Source: Fodinicola acaciae | GTDB taxonomy: Bacteria; Actinomycetota; Actinomycetes; Mycobacteriales; HKI-0501 | DNA: 64,000 bases | Assembly: GCF_010993745.1 (NCBI RefSeq) | Contig: NZ_WOTN01000002.1 | Span: 2,232,001 to 2,296,000 of the forward strand | Direction: 5' to 3' | In this document: piece after piece, positions 21,213 to 60,330 of the stretch | Layout of the letters: each line of letters opens with the position of its first letter | Position numbering within the stretch: the first letter of the stretch is position 1 | Position numbers and translations under genes: made by a program | The notes under the pieces: generated by a model | What the model was told of the DNA's origin: nothing | Databases searched by the model: none | The model's input: only the letters and a program-made list of their open reading frames with translations

Positions 21213-22570
21213 TGGCAAAACGCAAGGACGACGCCCGGAAGGCCTCCGAGCAGCTGGAAGAGGTGCTGGCCGCGCTGCAGGCACGCGGCCAGGGCCGGAT
21301 GCTGCCGGACCGGACGCGGATCGTCGAGCTGCTCGACCTGCTCGGCAACCCGCAGAAGGCGTATCCGGCGATCCACCTGACCGGCACGAACGGCAAGACC
21401 TCGACGGCGCGGATCATCGACTCGCTGTTGCGCGCGCAGGGCCTGCGGGTCGGCCGCTACACCAGCCCGCACCTGGACAGCCCGGCCGAACGGATCAGCC
21501 TGGACGGCGAGCCGATCGACCCGGAGCGGTTCGTCGCCGCCTATCGCGACGTCGCGCCGTACGTGCAGCTGATGGACGAGCGCAACGCCGACCCGGTCAC
21601 CTACTTCGAGCTGATGACCGCGATGGCCTTCGCCGCCTTCGCCGACGCGCCGGTCGACGTGGCCGTCGTCGAGGTGGGGCTCGGCGGCACCTGGGACGCC
21701 ACCAACGTCATCGACGCCGGCGTCGCGGTCGTCACGCCGATCGGCCTCGACCACGTGGAGCTGCTCGGTCCGACGATCGCCGACATCGCCAAGGAGAAGG
21801 CCGGCATCATCCACGAAGGCGCGACCGTCGTGACCGCCGTACAGCCGGCCGAGGCCGCCGAGCCACTGCTGCGCCGCGCGGTCGACGTCGGCGCGACCGT
21901 CGCGCGCGAGGGCCAGGAGTTCGGCGTCGTCGAGCGGCAGATCGCGGTCGGCGGCCAGATGCTGTGGCTGCAGGGCCTGTCGGCGCGATACGAGGAGATT
22001 TTCCTGCCGCTGCAGGGCGCTCACCAGGCGCAGAACGCGGCGCTCGCGCTGGCCGCCGTCGAGGCGTTCCTCGGCGCCGGCCGCGAGCGGTCGCTGGACG
22101 CCGACGGCGTACGCGAGGGCTTCGCCGAGGTCAGCTCGCCCGGTCGGCTGGAGCGCGTACGGACCAGTCCGACCGTGCTGCTGGACGCGGCGCACAACAC
22201 GGCTGGCATGCAGGCGCTGGTCGACGCGCTTCGCGAGGAGTTCGCCTTCAGCCGGCTGGTCGCGGTGCTCGGCGTGCTGGCCGACAAGGACACCAACGGC
22301 ATGCTCGAGCTGCTCGAGCCGTACGTCGACGCCGTGGTCGTCACGCAGAACAGCTCGCCGCGGGCGCTGCCGGCCGACGACCTGGCCGCGGTCGCCGTCG
22401 AGATCTTCGGCGCCGACCGGGTCGACGTGGAGCTGCGGCTCGACGACGCGATCGAGGCGGCCGTACGCCGCGTCGAGGAGGACCCGGACGCGCCGCTGGG
22501 CGGTCAGGGGGTCATCATCACCGGCTCCGTCGTGACGGTCGCCGACGCGCGGAGGCTGCTGGCCCGATGA
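21209..22570 (+). CDS. folC: Folylpolyglutamate synthase / dihydrofolate synthase
   Basis: A Mur-ligase-like enzyme of about 453 residues that adds glutamate to dihydropteroate and folates using ATP. The ATP-binding loop [15 protein letters not shown] is at about residues 55-69, followed by [15 protein letters not shown]. The conserved [14 protein letters not shown] and [11 protein letters not shown] are present. Translation starts at GTG 21209 or ATG 21212, both overlapping the valS stop; AGGGG lies 12-15 bases upstream. Its stop overlaps the next gene (ATGA), giving a tight valS-folC-DUF4233 operon as in other actinobacteria. Confidence 0.96.
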
Positions 22571-22998
22571 CCGACCCGGACCAGCCGCCGACGCAATCGG
22601 ATTCCGATTGTAAAGACTCGTCTACTGTAGACAATCCACCGCCGACCTCCGGCCTGCGCAACCCGGCGGCCGCCGCGCGCGGTGTGGGTGCGGCGACGCT
22701 GCTGCTGGAAGCGCTGGTGCTGCTGCTCGCGCTCGTACCGCTGGTGAAGCTCTCCGGCCGCGTCTCCGGCGCGCAGATCGGCATCCTGCTCGGCCTGGTC
22801 GCGCTGTGCGTGCTGACCTGCGCGGTGCTCAAGCGCGCGTGGGGCTGGCATGTCGGCACGGTCATCCAGGTCGCGGTGATGGCGACCGGCTTCTTCAACT
22901 GGGCGCTGTTGGTGCTCGGCGTGGTGTTCCTGGCGATCTGGCTTTACGTCCTCCACGTGCGTCGCACGCTCACCCGGCCGGCCCGTTTCACGCACTGA
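22567..22998 (+). CDS. DUF4233 membrane protein
   Basis: A 143-residue protein with a hydrophilic N-terminal part (about 1-45) and four membrane segments, ending in a short basic tail. Proteins with this layout directly after folC are known in actinobacteria as DUF4233; their function is unknown. It overlaps the folC stop by ATGA. An unusual feature is that codons 10-15 (QSDSDC) are formed by a copy of the 17-bp palindrome that recurs in this window, so a repeat has been taken into the coding sequence near the start. Confidence 0.85.
   Translation: MTDPDQPPTQSDSDCKDSSTVDNPPPTSGLRNPAAAARGVGAATLLLEALVLLLALVPLVKLSGRVSGAQIGILLGLVALCVLTCAVLKRAWGWHVGTVIQVAVMATGFFNWALLVLGVVFLAIWLYVLHVRRTLTRPARFTH
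22594..22610. repeat. 17-bp palindrome (copy inside DUF4233 gene)
   Basis: CAATCGGATTCCGATTG, a perfect odd palindrome, lies inside the first codons of the DUF4233 gene. The same 17 bases occur at 42242, 46624, 46826 and 59066. This copy keeps the ACG before the core but its right flank differs (TAAAG), so the symmetry stops at the core. Confidence 0.85.
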
Positions 22999-36550: not shown

Positions 36551-36581
36551 AAAAGGCCCCGGCGTTTCTGCCGGGGCTTTT
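36551..36581 (+). terminator. Intrinsic terminator of ileS
   Basis: GCCCCGGC and GCCGGGGC form a stem with a short TTTC-containing loop, preceded by AAAA and followed by TTTT. The A-run and T-run allow action in both directions, between the convergent ileS and the membrane protein gene. Confidence 0.85.
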
Positions 36582-36592
36582 CGCTGAGTGGA

Positions 36593-41778: not shown

Positions 41779-42367
41779 GTGGCTGGCTTGAGCGCCGGCC
41801 AGGGCCGACGTGCAAGTCAACCCGCTTGAGTCACGACAGCATTGCTCGCCCCGCCAGTCGCACTCGTCACAGCGACTGGCGCTCATGTGGGGGTGAAAGC
41901 CGTTTTCTTGCGTCTAGCGCTAGTAGATCGGCTTTCGCCCCATCCACAAACATCGCAGGCCGGACATTCAGCGCTCCATGTGCTTGTGGTCTCACAGAGT
42001 GGTCCTTCTCGCCACCTACCAGGACGCCGTCGAACGCCGTGGGCTCCTTCGGCGGCCACCAGGCAAACCGGACCACGCGCGGCAGCCGACCCAGCTACAA
42101 ACAGACCTGCGCCCTTCCAGTTGCCGCCGGCATCCCCTGGATAGATCGTCTCGGGCACGACCGGGACCCGATTGTTGCGGCGCGGTTTTTGTCGTACCGG
42201 GCGAGGACTCTGGTTTGGGGGCGGCGCATTTCGCCTCGTGACAATCGGATTCCGATTGTCACGGCATGGTTTGTCGAAGGCGGCTGAGATCCTGGTTCGG
42301 GGGCGGCAGAACGGGTTGTCCCAATCGGGTCCCGATTGTCCCCGGCCGGATTTTGGGCCCCCGAATA
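41779..42367. other. 589-bp intergenic region with hairpins and repeats
   Basis: No convincing gene is seen. Two structured elements stand at the left: a perfect 10-bp hairpin (41852-41861 with 41872-41881), and a longer one (41888-41902 with 41929-41942) whose loop holds the perfect palindrome CTAGCGCTAG. The right part (from 42163) consists of 80-bp tandem repeats containing the CAATCGG palindromes. A 69-codon leftward frame at 41867-42076 has no recognisable family. The region may hold decayed mobile DNA. Confidence 0.6.
42163..42338. repeat. 80-84 bp tandem repeats carrying the CAATCGG palindrome
   Basis: A unit with CCGATTG, then GGTTT-TGTCG, then CTGGTT(T/C)GGGGGCGGC and CAATC is present about 2.2 times, beginning at 42163, 42247 and 42327. 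At the unit junctions are palindromes: 42237-42263 (27 bp, containing the 17-bp core found elsewhere) and 42322-42338 (CAATCGGGTCCCGATTG, a variant with compensating changes). Confidence 0.75.
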
Positions 42368-43851: not shown

Positions 43852-46587
43852 ATGCCAACGAGGAAACGCAGCGGCTCATCTGGCGATGAAGCCGCGGCCA
43901 CGCCTGCCGAGACCGAGGAAGCGGTAGCCAAGCCGGTCAAGAAGACGGCACGACCGCGTAAGACCGCGAAACCGAAGGCCGCCGTCGAGGCGCCACCGGT
44001 CGAGCTCGAGCCGGTCGAGCCGGCGCCGCCGGCCAAGAAGGTGACCCGCAAGCGCGCCGCAAAGAAGGCGGCGGTCGCCGCCGTCGAGGCCGACGTGCTG
44101 ATCGAGCCGGAGGTCGCTCCGGAGGTCAGTGAGGCGCCGGCGCCGCGCAAGCGGACGCGCCGGGCCGCGACCCGCGCCGCCGCGCCGCCGGCCGAGCCGG
44201 AGCTGACGCTCGTACCGGACGAGGAGACAGCGCCGGCGCCGCAGCCGGAGCCCGAGCCGGCGGAGAAGCCGGCCGCGAAGAACGGCCGGTCGAGCCGCCG
44301 TGCGCCGGCGCCGATGGCCCTGTTCATGGCGCCCGAGCTGCCGGAGCCGGTCCCGGCGGTGACCGTCGAGGTCGTCGTCGACGCCGCCAAGGGGGCCGCC
44401 AAGGGGGCCGCCAAGGCTCCGGAAGCGGCCGAGGAGCCGGCCGAGGACGATGACACCGGGGAGACCGACGAGTCCGCCGAGGCGGAGAGCGGCGCGGAGA
44501 GCCGGCGTCGCCGCCGTGGTCGTCGTGGCCGTGGCCGTGGCCGCGGCGCCAGCGACGACGCGAGCGAGTCCACCGAGACGGGGGACCAGCAGCCGGCCGC
44601 CGAGCAGTCGGGACAGTCCGAGCCATCTGAGCAGCCCGAACAGGCCGCCGAGGCCGAGTCCGAGGAGTCCGACGACTCGGATGACTCCGACGACGCGGCA
44701 GCCGGCACGACCCGTCGCCGGCGGCGTCGTCGCCGGCGCGGCAACGAGACCGGCGACGGCGACCAGGACGACGACGTCGCCACCGAGGTGCACGTACGTG
44801 AGCCGCGCCACGAGACCGCCGAGAGCGACGACGGCGTCCGCGGCGTCAAGGGCTCGACCCGGCTGGAGGCCAAGCGCCAGCGCCGCCGTGACGGCCGTGA
44901 CCAGGGCCGTCGTCGGCCGCCGGTGCTCACCGAGGCGGAGTTCCTGGCGCGCCGGGAGGCCGTCGAGCGCACCATGGTCGTGCGGCAGCGCGGCGAGCGT
45001 ACGCAGATCGCCGTGCTTGAGGACAACGTGCTCGTCGAGCATTACGTGACCAAGGCGTCGTCGACGTCGTACGCGGGCAACGTCTATCTCGGCCGCGTGC
45101 AGAACGTGCTGCCGAGCATGGAGGCCGCCTTCGTCGACATCGGCAAGGGCCGTAACGCGGTGCTCTACGCCGGCGAGGTCAACTGGGACCTGGCCGGCAT
45201 GGACGGCAAGCCGCGCAAGATCGAGCAGGCGCTCAAGTCCGGCGACTCGGTGCTGGTGCAGGTCACCAAGGACCCGGTCGGCCACAAAGGCGCGCGGCTG
45301 ACCTCGCAGGTGAGCCTGCCGGGCCGGTTCCTGGTGTACGTGCCGGAAAACGACATGACCGGGATCAGCCGCAAGCTGCCGGACAACGAGCGCAAGCGGC
45401 TCAAGTCGATCCTGAAGAAGGTGGTGCCGGAAAACGCCGGCGTCATCGTGCGTACGGCCGCCGAAGGTGCCAGCGAGGAGGAGCTGCGCCGCGACGTGGC
45501 CCGCCTGGAGGCGCAGTGGCAGGCCATCCAGAAGGCGCAGCAGAGCGCGTCCGCGCCGGCGCTGCTCTACGCCGAGCCCGACCTGGTCATCCGGGTCATC
45601 CGGGACATCTTCAACGAGGACTTCGCGTCGCTGGTCGTCTCCTCCGACGGTTCCAAGGACGACGCCTGGGAGACGGTACGCGAGTACGTCGGCCACGTGT
45701 CGCCCGACCTGGTCGAACGGCTGTCGCACCACGTCGCGGAGACCGACGTGTTCACCGCCCACCGGGTCGACGAGCAGCTGGCCAAGGCGCTGGACCGCAA
45801 GGTCTGGCTGCCCTCCGGCGGCTCGCTGGTCATCGACCGCACCGAGGCGATGACGGTGATCGACGTGAACACCGGCCGGTTCACCGGCCAGGGCGGCAAC
45901 CTGGAGGAGACCGTCACCAGGAACAACCTGGAGGCGGCCGAGGAGATCGTCCGGCAGCTGCGGCTGCGCGACATCGGCGGCATCATCGTCATCGACTTCA
46001 TCGACATGGTGCTGGAGAGCAACCGTGAGCTGGTGCTGCGCCGGCTGACCGAGTGCCTCGGCCGCGACCGTACGAAGCACCAGGTCGCCGAGGTCACCTC
46101 GCTCGGACTCGTACAGATGACCCGCAAGCGGGTCGGTCAGGGCCTGCTGGAGGCCTTCAGCGAGACCTGTGAGGTGTGTCATGGCCGCGGCCTGATCATC
46201 CACACCGAGCCGGTCGACAAGGACAACAAGCAGCAGGTGTCCAGCGCGGAAGGCAGTGGCCGGCGCAAGCGCAACCGCGGCAAGGACTCCGCCGAGAGCG
46301 CGCCCAAGCCGCGTCCGCCGGTCGAGGACGCCGACGACGTGGTCACCGCCGAGGACGCCTCGCCGATCGACGACGTGAGCGACAACAGCCTGGTCGTGGA
46401 GCCGGTCGAGCCTGTGTCCGCCTCGCCGGCCGCCGAGCCCGCTGTCGCTGAGGCCGAGCCCGAGCCTCCGGCCGCCGAGGTCGAGGAGCCGACGGTGTCG
46501 GTGGCGCAGCCGACACGCGCGCGGCGCACTCGCCGCGCCGCCTCCCGCCCAGCCGGTCCGCCGCCCCAGGTCGCCGTCGGCAGCTGA
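43852..46587 (+). CDS. rne: Ribonuclease E/G
   Basis: A 911-residue endoribonuclease for RNA decay and rRNA processing. As in other actinobacteria, the catalytic core is flanked by long disordered arms: an N-terminal region (about 1-360) of Pro/Ala/Glu and Arg-rich blocks, and a shorter acidic C-terminal arm. The core contains the S1 domain (SYAGNVYLGRVQNVLPSMEA, from about 403). The metal-binding aspartates are in VIDVNTGRFTG (about 670) and VIDFIDMVLE (about 713), and the Zn-link is CEVCHGRGL (about 773). The arms probably bind RNA and degradosome partners. The palindromic terminator after the stop is part of a MITE-like repeat. Confidence 0.95.
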   Translation: MPTRKRSGSSGDEAAATPAETEEAVAKPVKKTARPRKTAKPKAAVEAPPVELEPVEPAPPAKKVTRKRAAKKAAVAAVEADVLIEPEVAPEVSEAPAPRKRTRRAATRAAAPPAEPELTLVPDEETAPAPQPEPEPAEKPAAKNGRSSRRAPAPMALFMAPELPEPVPAVTVEVVVDAAKGAAKGAAKAPEAAEEPAEDDDTGETDESAEAESGAESRRRRRGRRGRGRGRGASDDASESTETGDQQPAAEQSGQSEPSEQPEQAAEAESEESDDSDDSDDAAAGTTRRRRRRRRRGNETGDGDQDDDVATEVHVREPRHETAESDDGVRGVKGSTRLEAKRQRRRDGRDQGRRRPPVLTEAEFLARREAVERTMVVRQRGERTQIAVLEDNVLVEHYVTKASSTSYAGNVYLGRVQNVLPSMEAAFVDIGKGRNAVLYAGEVNWDLAGMDGKPRKIEQALKSGDSVLVQVTKDPVGHKGARLTSQVSLPGRFLVYVPENDMTGISRKLPDNERKRLKSILKKVVPENAGVIVRTAAEGASEEELRRDVARLEAQWQAIQKAQQSASAPALLYAEPDLVIRVIRDIFNEDFASLVVSSDGSKDDAWETVREYVGHVSPDLVERLSHHVAETDVFTAHRVDEQLAKALDRKVWLPSGGSLVIDRTEAMTVIDVNTGRFTGQGGNLEETVTRNNLEAAEEIVRQLRLRDIGGIIVIDFIDMVLESNRELVLRRLTECLGRDRTKHQVAEVTSLGLVQMTRKRVGQGLLEAFSETCEVCHGRGLIIHTEPVDKDNKQQVSSAEGSGRRKRNRGKDSAESAPKPRPPVEDADDVVTAEDASPIDDVSDNSLVVEPVEPVSASPAAEPAVAEAEPEPPAAEVEEPTVSVAQPTRARRTRRAASRPAGPPPQVAVGS

Positions 46588-46614
46588 CCCCCCTCTCCAC
46601 CGCAGCCGCCTGGT

Positions 46615-46649
46615 CAGAGGACGCAATCGGATTCCGATTGCGTCCTCTG
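46615..46649. terminator. 35-bp perfect palindrome after rne
   Basis: The sequence from 46615 to 46649 is a perfect odd palindrome with 17-bp arms, centred on T46632 and built on the recurrent CAATCGG core. It starts 28 bp after the rne stop, so it probably terminates rne transcripts; there is no T-run. It also forms the left end of the MITE-like element. Confidence 0.65.
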
Positions 46650-46845
46650 TTGGCTCTTGACCTGCGGGTTTCCCGGCTGGGGTGACATTCGGACCCGCGA
46701 TCCGGCGCCCGAATGTCACCCTGTCGCCCAGGGTCGCCGGAAAACCGGTCAAGAAAGTTGCGATCGGACCTAAGGCCTTCATCCCCGGTCCGGCATATCC
46801 GCAGGTCAGTGCGCCACAGACGATGCAATCGGATTCCGATTGCGT
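46621..46845. mobile_element. MITE-like element, 225 bp, with 49-bp terminal inverted repeats
   Basis: The first 49 bases (46621-46669) and the reverse complement of the last 49 (46797-46845) align without gaps at 39 of 49 positions. Each end carries the 17-bp palindrome followed, 26 bases from its centre, by TGACCTGCGG. The interior has a 12-bp hairpin (46681-46692 with 46709-46720). It encodes no protein. The same left module plus the interior hairpin recurs at 59063. No target duplication is obvious. A non-autonomous transposon is the simplest reading; a structured regulatory RNA is an alternative. Confidence 0.6.
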
Positions 46846-46901
46846 CGTCGGTCGAGCGGCCGTTTGCCGTACGCGGAAAACAGGTTACGGTGTGAGTTAG
46901 T

Positions 46902-46981
46902 GACGGCGGGGTGCCTCGTCTGGCGAGGCTGAGATCAGACCCGTCGAACCTGATCTAGCTAACACTAGCGAAGGGACCGTC
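46902..46981 (+). ncRNA. TPP riboswitch (THI element)
   Basis: The conserved segments are all present: CGGGGTGCC, GGCTGAGATCAGACCC, GAACCTGATCTAGCTAAC and ACTAGCGAAGGGA. The closing helix is GACGG (46902-46906) with CCGTC (46977-46981). The GAAGGGA at the 3' edge is also the ribosome site of thiD, 12 bases before its ATG, so thiamine pyrophosphate binding should block translation directly. It controls thiD-tenA. Confidence 0.95.
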
Positions 46982-46987
46982 GCGGCC

Positions 46988-47788
46988 ATGATTCCGCATG
47001 TGTTGACCATCGCCGGCACCGATCCGACCGGCGGCGCCGGCATCCAGGCAGATCTCAAGACGTTCTCGGCGCTCGGCGGCTATGGCATGACCGTCGTGAC
47101 GGCGGTCGTCGCGCAGAACACGCGAGGCGTGCGGTCGATCCACCCGGTCCCGGCGGATTTCGTCGGCGAGCAGCTCGACGCGGTGTTCCAGGACGTACGC
47201 GTCGACGCGGTGAAGACCGGAATGCTCGGCGACGCCGGCCTGATTCGGACGGTCGCCGCGAAAATCGCCGTCTACAAGCCGAAATACCTGATCGTCGACC
47301 CGGTCATGGTCGCCAAGAGCGGCCACCGGCTGCTGCCGGAGGACGCCGTACGCGCACTCCGCGACGACCTGCTGCCGCTGGCCGACCTGATCACGCCCAA
47401 TCTGCCGGAGGCGGCGGATCTGTTGGAGGACAAGGAAACCGACGATCTCGCCGGCATGCACGAACAGGCCGGCCGGCTGCGCGCGTACGGTCCGGTGGTG
47501 CTGCTCAAAGGCGGTCATCTGGCCGGCAGCGACAGCGTCGACATCCTGCTCGACCGCGAACCGGTGGAGTTTTCCGCGCCACGCGTGGAAACGCGCAACA
47601 CGCACGGCACCGGCTGCACGCTGTCCTCGGCGATAACGACGTTGCGGCCGATGCGGGACGACTGGTTTTCGGCCGTACGAGAGGCAAAAGACTATCTGAC
47701 CGCCGCGCTGACCGCCGCCGACGATCTGGACATCGGCACCGGACACGGTCCGCCACACCATTTTCACGCGATCTGGAAGGAAAGCTGA
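46988..47788 (+). CDS. thiD: Hydroxymethylpyrimidine/phosphomethylpyrimidine kinase
   Basis: A 266-residue ribokinase-fold enzyme that phosphorylates HMP and HMP-phosphate for thiamine synthesis. It has the substrate loop IAGTDPTGGAGIQADLKTFS at the N-terminus and the anion-hole motif NTHGTGCTLSSAI near the C-terminus, with the catalytic Cys/Gly region intact. It is controlled by the TPP riboswitch just upstream. The tenA gene starts inside its stop codon (TGATG), so both are made together. Confidence 0.95.
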   Translation: MIPHVLTIAGTDPTGGAGIQADLKTFSALGGYGMTVVTAVVAQNTRGVRSIHPVPADFVGEQLDAVFQDVRVDAVKTGMLGDAGLIRTVAAKIAVYKPKYLIVDPVMVAKSGHRLLPEDAVRALRDDLLPLADLITPNLPEAADLLEDKETDDLAGMHEQAGRLRAYGPVVLLKGGHLAGSDSVDILLDREPVEFSAPRVETRNTHGTGCTLSSAITTLRPMRDDWFSAVREAKDYLTAALTAADDLDIGTGHGPPHHFHAIWKES

Positions 47789-48459
47789 TGTTCTGCGAGC
47801 AGGTGTGGAGCCGGATCCAGCCGCTGCTCAAGGAAACGCTCAACCATCCGTTCAACCGGGAGTTGTCCGCCGGCACGCTCGACCAGGACGTTTTTCGTTT
47901 CTATCTCGTCCAGGACGCGCGTTATCTGGCCGATTTCGCCAAGGCCCTGGCGCATGCCGCGGCGATCGCGCCGGCGCCGGACGACGCCGCTTTTCTGGCC
48001 GGCAGCTCGGCAAATGTCATCGTCGTCGAGCGCGGCCTGCACGAGCGTTATTTCGCGCGATACGGACTGACCGGCCTCGATGACATCCCGACCTCGCCGA
48101 GCGCCACCGCCTACAACAACCACCTGCTGGCGGCCGTCGCGCGCGGCGGCTTCGGTCCGCTGATGGCGACCGTGTTGCCGTGCTTCTGGATCTACGAGTA
48201 CGTCGGCAACGCGATCCACACCGAGCAGACCGGCGCGGCCAACCCGTATGCGGACTGGATCGAGACGTACGCCGACCCCGGCTTCGCCGAGTCGGTGGCC
48301 AGGGCCAAGGACATCACCGACCGCGCGGCCGCCACCGCGAGCCCGGCCGAGCGACGGCGGATGGTCGACGCGTTCGTACGATCCTCGGAGTACGAGTGGC
48401 TGTTCTGGGACTCCGCCTACCGGCGAGAACGCTGGCCGACGGTGAGTTTGACCGCATAA
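47788..48459 (+). CDS. tenA: TenA family thiaminase II / aminopyrimidine hydrolase
   Basis: A 223-residue all-helical protein that salvages HMP from thiamine breakdown products. It keeps the features of class C TenA: the active-site Cys in TVLPCFWIYEYVGN, the RYLADFAKALAHAA helix and the terminal acidic YEWLFWDSAYR. Its start overlaps thiD. Placing salvage and phosphorylation steps in one TPP-controlled operon makes biochemical sense. A GC-rich hairpin follows the stop. Confidence 0.93.
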   Translation: MFCEQVWSRIQPLLKETLNHPFNRELSAGTLDQDVFRFYLVQDARYLADFAKALAHAAAIAPAPDDAAFLAGSSANVIVVERGLHERYFARYGLTGLDDIPTSPSATAYNNHLLAAVARGGFGPLMATVLPCFWIYEYVGNAIHTEQTGAANPYADWIETYADPGFAESVARAKDITDRAAATASPAERRRMVDAFVRSSEYEWLFWDSAYRRERWPTVSLTA

Positions 48460-57670: not shown

Positions 57671-59092
57671 ATGTTCGACGTGATCGTGGTCGGCGCCGGT
57701 CCGACCGGACTCTTCCTGGCCAGCGAGCTGCGGTTGTACGGCCTGTCCGTCGTCGTGCTGGAGGCACTGGCGCAACGCAGCCCGTTCGCGCGTGCCGGCG
57801 GCATCCAGCCGCGTACGGCCGAAATCCTCGACCAGCGGGGTGTTCTGGAACCGTTGCTGGCGACCGGTGACTATCCAGCGTACGGCGGTGGCCATTTCGC
57901 TGGCCTGTCGGTGGACTTCCGGTCGTGGGGCAGCCGGCAGCCGGCGCGGATCATCGTGCAGGACCGCATCGAGGAGTTTTTGGAGCGGCGGCTCGCAAAC
58001 GTCGTACGACGCGAGCACCGGCTGGTCTCCGTGGTGCCGGCTGACGACCACGTGACCGCGGTCGTCGACAGTCCACAAGGGACAGTCGAGCTGCGAGGTC
58101 GCTATCTGGTCGCTGCCGACGGCGCGCACAGCGCCGTACGCAAGACGCTCGGCATCGAGTTTCCCGGCCGTGACAGCAGCGCGACCGCGGTGGCCGCGGA
58201 CGTACGGATGACCGGTCCGGCGCTCAGCGCGCGGCGCCATGCCGAGGTCAGCCGGGCGAGCGACGGCCGCTGGGGGATGATTTTCGAGCTGCGAGAGGGA
58301 GAAGTCCGGCTGGCGCTCGGCGGCGGAGGCCACGACCGGCAGGAGCCGGTGACCGCGGCGGAGGTGCGGGATGCGGTCGCGGCGATTTTCGGCGACGGCA
58401 ACGACGTGCACGAGGTGATCCGTGCGGTGCGGATCGGCGACGCGGCTCGCCAGGTCGAGAACTATCGGCACGGCCGCGTTTTCCTGGCCGGCGACGCCGC
58501 GCACGTCCATCTGCCGATGGGCGGACAGGGCCTCAACCTCGGCGTCCAGGACGCGGCCAACCTCGGCTGGAAGCTGGCGCGTGGCGACGATGAGCTGCTG
58601 GACACCTACTCGACCGAGCGGCATCCGGTCGCCGCGCGCGTGCTGCAGAACACGCAGGCGCAGAGCCTGCTGGTGGACTTCGCCGGCACCGGCACGCCGG
58701 ACCTCACCGCGATGCGCGCGATCTTCCAGTCGATGCTGGACATTCCGGAGACCATGCACTTCTTCGCCGGCATGCTGTCGGGGCTGGACCTGCGCTACGA
58801 GATGCCGGACCAGCCGGAGCATCCGCTGCTGGGCCGCCGGATCCCGGACGTGGACCTGAGAAACGGCATGCGCGCGCACGAACTTCTGCGCTCCGGCAAC
58901 GGATTGCTCCTTGGCCTGGCGGCCACGGATCATACCGACATCAGCTGCGTCGAGGACGTCGGCGGCCTCGACGCCGAGCTGCTCCTCGTACGTCCGGATG
59001 GCTATGTCTGCGCCACGTCCTTCGCCGGCCTCGACAAAGCCCTGGCGCGCTGGTTTCCGACGACGCAATCGGATTCCGATTGCGTCGTCTGA
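57671..59092 (+). CDS. FAD-dependent aromatic-ring monooxygenase
   Basis: A 473-residue class A flavoprotein monooxygenase, similar to those that hydroxylate phenols, rifamycin or polyketides. The FAD-binding motif is VIVVGAGPTGLFLASELRL (about 4-22), the DG motif is YLVAADGAHSAVRKTLG, and the second FAD motif is FLAGDAAHVHLPMGGQGLN. A thioredoxin-like C-terminal domain follows. The substrate is unknown. The last residues, QSDSDCVV, are encoded by a 31-bp palindrome of the recurrent family that also overlaps the stop codon, so the repeat has been taken into the gene end. Confidence 0.9.
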   Translation: MFDVIVVGAGPTGLFLASELRLYGLSVVVLEALAQRSPFARAGGIQPRTAEILDQRGVLEPLLATGDYPAYGGGHFAGLSVDFRSWGSRQPARIIVQDRIEEFLERRLANVVRREHRLVSVVPADDHVTAVVDSPQGTVELRGRYLVAADGAHSAVRKTLGIEFPGRDSSATAVAADVRMTGPALSARRHAEVSRASDGRWGMIFELREGEVRLALGGGGHDRQEPVTAAEVRDAVAAIFGDGNDVHEVIRAVRIGDAARQVENYRHGRVFLAGDAAHVHLPMGGQGLNLGVQDAANLGWKLARGDDELLDTYSTERHPVAARVLQNTQAQSLLVDFAGTGTPDLTAMRAIFQSMLDIPETMHFFAGMLSGLDLRYEMPDQPEHPLLGRRIPDVDLRNGMRAHELLRSGNGLLLGLAATDHTDISCVEDVGGLDAELLLVRPDGYVCATSFAGLDKALARWFPTTQSDSDCVV

Positions 59093-59159
59093 GGTGGCCT
59101 GACCTGCGGGTCTGCTCGGCACCGTGACATTCGGACACGCGAATCCGCGTCCGAATGTC
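59059..59159. repeat. Second copy of the MITE-like left module
   Basis: The palindrome 59059-59089 (31 bp, perfect, with the 17-bp core at 59066-59082) is followed by TGACCTGCGGGT at 59100 and a hairpin (59126-59141 with 59146-59159). All sit at the same offsets as in the rne-thiD copy at 46621. The right-hand inverted repeat is missing. The left end lies inside the monooxygenase gene. Confidence 0.75.
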
Positions 59160-59160
59160 G

Positions 59161-59200
59161 CCTTCTTGACCGGCTGGATCGCTCCAGCCGGTCAAGAAGG
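59161..59200. terminator. Bidirectional terminator between convergent genes
   Basis: Seventeen-base arms (59161-59177 and 59184-59200) are perfectly complementary around a 6-base loop. The hairpin lies 68 bp after the monooxygenase stop and 12 bp after the trpS stop on the other strand, so it can end both transcripts. Part of the arm (CCGGTCAAGAA) is shared with the MITE-like copy at 46745. Confidence 0.88.
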
Positions 59201-59211
59201 TGCCAATCGGA

Positions 59212-60228
59212 TCAGGCCGGCAGCAGGCCGATGGCCGTACGCGCGCGGTTGAGCGTACGGTCGGCACGCTCGGCGACCCGGTGGGCGCCGTCGGCGAGGA
59301 TGCCGCGTACGGTCGTCGGGTCGGCGGACAGCTCGGCATAGCGGACCTGCAGCGGCCGCAGCGCCTCGACCACGATGTCGGTGACACCGGATTTCAGTGC
59401 GCCATAGCCGGCGAAATCGCCGGCGATCAGCTCCGGGTCGGTGCCGGTCAGCGCCGCCGCGATGGACAGCAGGTTGGACACGCCCGGCTGGTTGTCCGGG
59501 TCGTACGCGACCGAGTTGCGCGAGTCGGTGACCGCCCGGCTGATCTTCTTGCGGATCTCGTCCGGCCGGTCCAGCAGGAAGATCACGCCGGCGCCACCGG
59601 CATTGGTCTTGCCCATCTTGCGGGTCGGGTCGGTGAGGTCCATGATCCGCGCGGCCACCTCGGGCAGCACCACTTTCGGCACGGTGAAGACATCGCCGTA
59701 GGTGCGGTTGAAGCGGATGGCTATGTCGCGCGCCAGCTCCACGTGCTGGCGCTGGTCCTCACCGACCGGCACCTCGTCGGTGTCGTACAACAGAATGTCG
59801 CTGGCCATCAACACCGGATAGGTCAGCAGCGCCAGCCGTACGGTCTCCTGCTTGGCCGATTTTTCCTTGAACTGGATCATTCTGTGCGCCTCGCCGTAAT
59901 GAGTCGCGGCCTCCAGCAAATAATGCAGGCCGGTGTGCGCGCTCACGTGGCTTTGCGCGTAAAGCGGCGCCTGCCTGGTGTCGAGGCCGGCGGCGAGGAT
60001 CACGGTGGCGAAACGAAGCGTACGCTCGGCGAGCTGGCGGGCGTCGTGTTCGACGGTCAACGCGTGCAGGTCGACGATCGCGACCACGGTCTCGGTGCTG
60101 TCGGCGTCGGCGATCGCCGGCCGGATGGCGCCGATCAGGTTGCCCAGCTGCGGGTTGCCGCTCGGGGTCAGGCCGGTGTAGCGGCGGGTACAGGTCAGCA
60201 GCTGGGTGGCAAGCGTGTCGGGGGTCAT
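59212..60228 (-). CDS. trpS: Tryptophanyl-tRNA synthetase
   Basis: A 338-residue class I synthetase of normal length. The HIGH-like motif is GLTPSGNPQLGNLIGAI (SGNPQLGN, about 17-24), with the Trp-site region FKEKSAKQ. The flexible loop is the variant RKMGKTNAG instead of KMSKS. The ATG at 60228 follows CAGGAGGACGCC. Its 5' region holds a leader peptide with two adjacent Trp codons and an attenuator hairpin, so expression should rise when tryptophanyl-tRNA is low. The variant loop may indicate a TrpRS of the indolmycin-resistance-like type, but that is speculative. Confidence 0.95.
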   Translation of the reverse strand: MTPDTLATQLLTCTRRYTGLTPSGNPQLGNLIGAIRPAIADADSTETVVAIVDLHALTVEHDARQLAERTLRFATVILAAGLDTRQAPLYAQSHVSAHTGLHYLLEAATHYGEAHRMIQFKEKSAKQETVRLALLTYPVLMASDILLYDTDEVPVGEDQRQHVELARDIAIRFNRTYGDVFTVPKVVLPEVAARIMDLTDPTRKMGKTNAGGAGVIFLLDRPDEIRKKISRAVTDSRNSVAYDPDNQPGVSNLLSIAAALTGTDPELIAGDFAGYGALKSGVTDIVVEALRPLQVRYAELSADPTTVRGILADGAHRVAERADRTLNRARTAIGLLPA

Positions 60229-60276
60229 GGCGTCCTCCTGGGTGGGGCTCGCGGAGGCCGGCCGGAGACACGAAAG

Positions 60277-60298
60277 CGGCCGCCTCATCGAGCGGCCG
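60277..60298 (-). terminator. Attenuator terminator before trpS
   Basis: On the minus strand CGGCCGC and GCGGCCG form a stem with an 8-base loop, followed by CTTTC. It lies 33 bases after the leader peptide stop codon and 48 bases before trpS. A second hairpin (60325-60340) covers the leader stop and could be the competing stem. Confidence 0.65.
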
Positions 60299-60330
60299 AA
60301 ATGTGATTTACGCAATAATGCGGGGCCGCG

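Follow-up and report, generated by a model that had tools for sequence, protein, structure and literature searches.

What is the block of inverted palindromes that lies between rne and a TPP riboswitch in Fodinicola acaciae, and how did it come to be there? We analyzed a 64,000-nucleotide stretch of the genome (the window), in which the block, a mirrored element at 46615-46851, is found between the end of the rne ORF (46587) and the riboswitch (46897-46993). The original prediction described a MITE-like element with palindrome-tipped inverted ends that might have been co-opted as the terminator of rne. Both the location and the inverted ends hold up. The element appears to belong to a large family of gene-less intergenic repeats in one genus of soil actinomycetes, Fodinicola. 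The family is non-coding, modular, and dispersed; the original prediction was right about this but understated it.

The modules of the element (Table 1) are, in order, H1, the T motif, H2, H3, a diverged E motif, a reversed T motif, and a reversed H1 (H1'). The inverted arms (46610-46676 and 46790-46856) are 67 nt long with 76% complementarity, and there are 36-nt direct copies starting at 46615 and 46817, of which the second is 89% identical to the first. The arms of H1 are 17 nt long and fully complementary, with one central base between them. H3 is a third hairpin that was absent from the original prediction. As RNA, the element has a predicted fold of -144 kcal/mol (z of -11 versus shuffles), which is expected because its arms are inverted.

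Table 1. Modules of the rne element and related features in the window.
Feature	Position	Strand	Details
H1, left palindrome	46615..46649	+	17-bp core CAATCGGATTCCGATTG at 46624-46640
T motif TGACCTGCGG	46658..46667	+	18 nt past 15-bp core
H2: E-type motif and its reverse complement	46680..46721	+	13-nt arms, 16 nt between
H3 stem-loop, TTGTTGACC...GGTCAACAA type, diverged in window copy	46722..46757	+	within R1 match 46658-46770
Terminal E motif, diverged; usual end of one-ended copies	46757..46770	+	within R1 match 46658-46770
T motif, mirrored half	46799..46808	-	motif match
H1', right palindrome, arms imperfect	46817..46851	-	inverted-arm/direct-copy comparison
H1 of second, one-ended copy	59056..59092	+	palindrome search, module scan
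T, H2, H3, and terminal E of second copy	59100..59213	+	R1 match, 106 bits
Solo core palindrome, GTGAC/GTCAC arms, in another repeat array	42238..42262	+	core and motif scan
Core palindrome within coding sequence, N-terminal codons of DUF4233 gene (22567-22998)	22593..22611	+	core scan, domain match

Cores with up to two mismatches occur six times in the window, versus 0.04 expected from shuffles. The further copy that had been reported at 59063 is real: it has H1, TGACCTGCGG, H2, and H3, and it spans 59055-59214 as a one-ended copy. R1, a covariance model made from 27 rows, all of them picked by their core and with H1 excluded, scored this copy at 106 bits and the rne element at 79.4 bits; note that the 59100 copy is itself one of the 27 rows. 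Two more places were absent from the original prediction. One is an array (42150-42350) in which the GTGAC-armed solo core, at 42242, is accompanied by a degenerate second core (42323-42337) and by repeated GGTTTGTCG / CTGGTTCGGGGGCGGC-like pieces, a composite unlike the 225-bp element. The other is the core at 22594, within the coding sequence of a DUF4233 gene. This palindrome encodes part of the protein's N-terminal tail (TQSDSDC), and the orthologue in G002, a genome from the same family, has a shorter and different tail with no core palindrome. We considered a DNA uptake sequence and rejected it: in the window, 10 of the 11 matches to CAATCGGA are in core palindromes, and the other is in the E motif at 59204.

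Some neighboring genes directly adjoin these copies. The thiD-tenA region (46988-48459) adjoins the rne element and is missing at the rne-rplU junction in G002. An ORF of the FAD-binding, aromatic-ring hydroxylase type (57671-59092) terminates within the H1 of the second copy, which forms its last codons and stop codon (59063-59092). A class I tRNA-synthetase (W/Y) gene at 59212-60315 adjoins the same copy on the other side, and both the gene and the element (59055-60315) are absent at the corresponding junction in G001, the sole genome from the same genus that we searched.

The exact core, AATCGGATTCCGATT, is present in 66 copies in the host genome (G000; 8.86 Mb in 4 contigs), versus 0 for a reversed control, and in 58 copies in G001. 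It is absent from 59 genomes of the family and order (G002 and 58 order members; 61 genomes were searched in all). Across 394 genomes of the class, a draw that was separate from G001, CAATCGGANTCCGATTG was found only in the host (65 copies), with none in the other 393. In a collection of 84,980 species, which may leave out the host itself, GCAATCGGANTCCGATTGC was found in 9 stretches: two from Fodinicola feengrottensis and seven single ones in unrelated genomes. One stretch from F. feengrottensis (L200) has a T-like motif and then an exact GTGACAATCGGACA after the core. Running R1 on the seven palindromes from unrelated genomes gave nothing significant (best 14.1 bits, E = 0.1). This is the opposite of a sequence that is fixed at the rne-thiD site of distant genera and has no other genomic copies. 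Rather, a dispersed miniature element, as originally proposed, is borne out by the many genomic copies and by differences in presence at orthologous sites (see below), with just those seven single palindromes found outside the genus in the genomes searched.

With an E-value limit of 1, R1 matched G000 116 times and G001 45 times (an element may be counted once on each strand). There were 44 matches in G000 with E < 1e-10, and 36 of these have a core within one mismatch (with the central base free). The other eight have no core within two mismatches; we inspected seven of them, and in all seven, H1 was missing or cut off. A strict pattern for the H3 module had 2 matches, which reflects a pattern that was too strict.

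The oriented copies have a fixed order: H1 with its core CAATCGGAnTCCGATTG, 18 nt, T (TGACCTGCGG), 13 nt, and E (GGTGACAATCGGACA). Longer copies continue with a loop, the reverse complement of E (rcE), TTGTTGACC, another loop, GGTCAACAA, and E (that is, rcE-H3-E). A few copies, including the one by rne, are mirrored. Copies are about 83 to 240 bp long and non-coding. The arms of H1, on either side of a single central base, have a median of 14.5 pairs (with one mismatch allowed); they are mostly GACGACGC/GCGTCGTC in G000 and often of the GCTGCA or GTCGTGA types in G001. Among 43 units with a T motif (within one mismatch), the core and T are 18 nt apart in all but two, in which the gap is 19 nt. 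Forty of these units have a recognized E; the gap from T to E measures 13 nt in 37 of them and 12 nt in the other three. In the 35 units with both of the commonest spacings, the mean pairwise identity is 0.93 for the core (a value that is inflated because the copies were first gathered by their core), 0.93 for T, and 0.79 for E, while the spacers have identities of 0.40-0.48 versus a random expectation of 0.27.

To compare the family between sister species, we typed 11 sites from 39 candidate rows in G000 and 8 of 14 sites from G001. Both samples are small, and the sites were chosen for their well-called flanking genes. From G000 to G001, 10 of the 11 sites could be mapped, and the core was present at three of these and at none of the other seven. 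The three shared sites differ in what is shared. At C2:1538638, both genomes have H1-T-H2-H3-E, but the two H1 arms differ and the core in G001 has one mismatch; at C1:2127566, both have the core; and at C4:700730, the solo core is identical and the arms are different. At C4:132009, where G000 has an element, G001 has a compact empty junction, with genes 6 bp apart (from our own gene calls). There was no synteny in G002 that would let it serve as an outgroup at this site, and at the rne-rplU region, the G001 contig stops 222 bp short of the rplU match.

In the other direction, all eight sites from G001 could be mapped in G000; the repeat is retained at three and was not seen at five, of which two (L119 and L124) could be aligned on just one flank. 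Both genomes have the same S unit (described below) at L195/L211. The hairpin is still there in G000 at L122/L213, but its arms are new (and complementary) and its core has two mismatches. At L130/L209, a single core lies inside a carotenoid-biosynthesis ORF (Caroten_synth, PF04240) in G000, and G001 has core-S-core along with a second repeat. This ORF is open in G000 (L209) and is interrupted in G001 by the core-S-core and the second repeat family (L130, 1973-2400). Overall, in the samples taken, 12 of the 18 mapped sites are unshared between the sister species. Absence at an orthologous site can mean loss; still, we infer that copies have been gained rather than only lost.

We think it likely that the rne element is a mirrored member of a modular, REP/MITE-like family that lacks a RAYT, is tolerated at the 3' ends of genes, and is spread by a putative enzyme. 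The short units would carry fixed recognition motifs: the 17-bp core, T, E, and the TTGACC arms of H3. An enzyme encoded elsewhere in the genome, presumably a transposase or recombinase, would recognize these motifs and copy the units into new intergenic places. Most surviving copies would be those that lie shortly after a stop codon or far upstream of a start codon, the places of least harm, and some solo palindromes may now serve as hairpins at 3' ends.

The distribution of cores around genes bears on this explanation and also on its strongest rival, which is that the palindromes are bidirectional terminators or 3'-end stabilizers that are maintained by selection on the hairpin, with the rest of the element as baggage. 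We classified 86 cores (up to two mismatches), which are those in 77 stretches around known copies, among the matches listed. (Four further cores with one mismatch turned up later, in L183, L187, L188, and L190, so the number of one-mismatch cores is at least that counted.) Gene calls were from a simple codon model that was trained on ten ORFs in the window, and its start codons are unreliable. By these calls, 29 cores are between convergent genes, 42 are between tandem genes, and 6 are between divergent genes, so that 77 of the 86 are intergenic; eight are within a called ORF and one is at an edge. The distance from the center of the core to the nearest gene 3' end has a median of 33 bp (43 of 71 are within 50 bp), and the distance to a 5' end has a median of 129 bp (5 of 48 are within 50 bp). 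The proximity to 3' ends is what a terminator or stabilizer would predict. At five sites (C1:2747716, C1:3109202, C4:160152, C4:584289, and C4:700730), the palindrome fills a convergent gap of 21-57 bp. By eye, the alignments show an unrelated hairpin in G001 at the junctions C1:3109202 and C1:1321926, and the hairpin in G000 at L122/L213 has been retained with wholly different complementary arms of 14 nt.

However, the palindromes do not look like intrinsic terminators, in which a run of T comes after a GC-rich hairpin: a T-run (five or more T within 8 nt, on either strand) is found beside just 4 of the 86 palindromes. Within 46500-47000, no site resembles a terminator with a T-run, so co-option as the rne terminator was not borne out. 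A hairpin of conventional appearance, with tails of A and T, is found between convergent genes elsewhere in the window (36551-36582). Selection on the hairpin alone also leaves the 66 identical 15-bp cores and the T and E motifs at fixed spacings unexplained. We therefore view a primary role as terminator or stabilizer as a genuine possibility, but one that we lean against.

If the family were instead a classical MITE, mobilized by a DDE transposase and ending at the H1 palindromes, then copies with two ends would be expected. A few of these were found (C2:2278625, which is the window copy, C3:1086664, and C3:1759907), and C4:132009 is a partial case, with T but no recognizable core at its second end; the filled and empty pair at C4:132009 also fits. 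But most of the oriented copies are one-ended, with H1 on one side and E on the other, and no autonomous copy was seen. By eye, we found no consistent target-site duplication at the three two-ended copies (the window copy has GGTC at each end, overlapping the palindromes, and there is no duplication at C3:1086664 or C3:1759907), and none was recognized at the empty site at C4:132009. TGTCCGATTGTCACC occurs 34 times with up to one mismatch, and by eye, no inverted pair of TGTCCGATTGTCACC/E (up to one mismatch) surrounds a gene-sized stretch. A transposase with matching ends was not found, either by this route or by searching for PF01797. So the original label of MITE stands in the sense of a dispersed miniature element but is not established in the strict sense, and a classical DDE-type MITE seems unlikely to us.

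The motifs themselves seem to be conserved as sequence. On a 28-row alignment (A2), the pairs of H1, H2, and H3 had a covariation of 0.073, versus 0.067 when shuffled, and 103 of 500 shuffles were as high. When rcE was instead paired with the last E, there was a slight excess (0.093 versus 0.078; 8 of 500 shuffles were as high). In both structures, 83-84% of cells pair, versus 25-43% for slid versions, as expected of inverted motifs. We thus rejected an RNA structure that is maintained by compensatory change. The blocks CA-TCGG, CCGA-TG, and TTGACC are almost invariant, and adjoining positions vary independently. Invariant blocks, together with diverged spacers that rarely change in length, suggest that a protein may recognize the DNA sequence of the motifs, rather than their pairing.

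Such a protein need not move the repeats. The core could be the operator of a host DNA-binding protein (a nucleoid organizer or a regulator), and the composites could be arrays of half-sites, CAnTCGGA. The fixed spacing, the conservation of half-sites without an excess of compensatory change in H2, and the unchanged core at C4:700730 despite different arms are all consistent with this. But a housekeeping set of sites should be more stable than one in which two-thirds of the mapped sites differ between sister species, sites are also found inside genes, the composite elements share descent, and we identified no candidate protein. We consider an operator rather improbable. A regulatory leader of rne or of the TPP-thiD unit, which the location and the strong fold might suggest, is highly improbable given that exact cores occur across the genome in varied gene contexts and that the fold follows from the inverted arms; because of the genome-wide copies, we also rejected the idea that the element is an RNA that regulates rne or thiD.

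Returning to our preferred explanation, a mobile repeat family without a RAYT, the closest known relatives in form are REPs, BIMEs, and REPINs. According to the excerpted text of PMC3733652, these are also short, many-copy palindromes in tandem or convergent gaps that are often oppositely paired and sometimes intragenic; REPs carry GTAG or CGTC tags and occur downstream of genes, as opposite dimers, or as intragenic units. As short, high-copy palindromes that are mostly intergenic, the cores are REP-like. Excerpts of PMC3733652 and PMC3116915 describe some REP families as species-specific, and the former names untagged REP-like repeats in Mycobacterium tuberculosis, although the word Actinobacteria is absent from that text. 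Unlike REPs, the family is found without a RAYT gene and is a longer composite with the extra fixed motifs T, E, and H3. No RAYT (Y1_Tnp, PF01797) was found in G000, G001 (74% complete), or G002, and on this basis we rejected a RAYT-driven REP; 5 of 14 control genomes were positive. The same excerpt describes a class of CGTC-tagged REPs with no dedicated transposase, which the family resembles in being palindromic repeats of this kind. Those REPs have stems of 8-9 bp and loops of 4-5 nt (PMC3733652), versus the longer arms, single central base, and different sequence here. By eye, no unpaired GTAG or CGTC tag is conserved beside H1 in the 28 rows of A2, and GCGTCGTC, which contains CGTC, lies in the stem.

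The family also resembles the structured MITEs NEMIS and ERIC, which are described in part of PMC3733652 as non-coding, 100-250 bp, dispersed, gene-adjacent, and foldable. At about 83 to 240 bp, non-coding, and in many copies, it is well within the size of MITEs (under about 600 bp). Unlike those MITEs, its copies are mostly one-ended and have no consistent target duplication by eye, and we identified no parent transposon. RUP is another MITE with strong secondary structure. As judged from titles and the openings of abstracts, the papers that we found to contain both Fodinicola and "repeat" are not about such repeats. The best-understood palindromic repeats are those that a RAYT copies, so a large family in an actinomycete genus, in genomes where no RAYT was found, raises the question of what else can spread repeats. 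This family combines rigid spacing with conservation at the level of sequence rather than of pairing, in genomes in which we found no Y1 transposase, and the filled, shared, and empty sites in two species make the question of its spread testable.

A more specific form of this explanation is that the 17-bp palindrome forms the end of each unit and is also where units preferably land, and that composites grow as units insert into palindromes through a putative sequence-recognizing enzyme; we hold this to be quite doubtful. It was raised by the S units (52-61 bp; TCCGATTG...CAATCGGA), which are flanked by two cores in G001 (L119, L126, L130, and L195). Insertion of an S unit into the center of a palindrome is weakly supported. 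In the six bases beside the core, the outer arms pair at 6 positions in L119, 5 in L195, 4 in L130, and 3 in L126. An alternative pairing is just as good in L195 and L130, and L126 favors pairing between the two ends of the unit itself (4). Both genomes also carry copies of a second dispersed family of repeats, CCCCCCACCC..GGGTGGGGG..GGTACGACAGTTTCG (L024, L022, L146, L065, and L075 in G000; L119, L125, L131, and L161 in G001). In the core-centered stretches that we examined, it is often near a core palindrome or an E end and sometimes forms inverted pairs.
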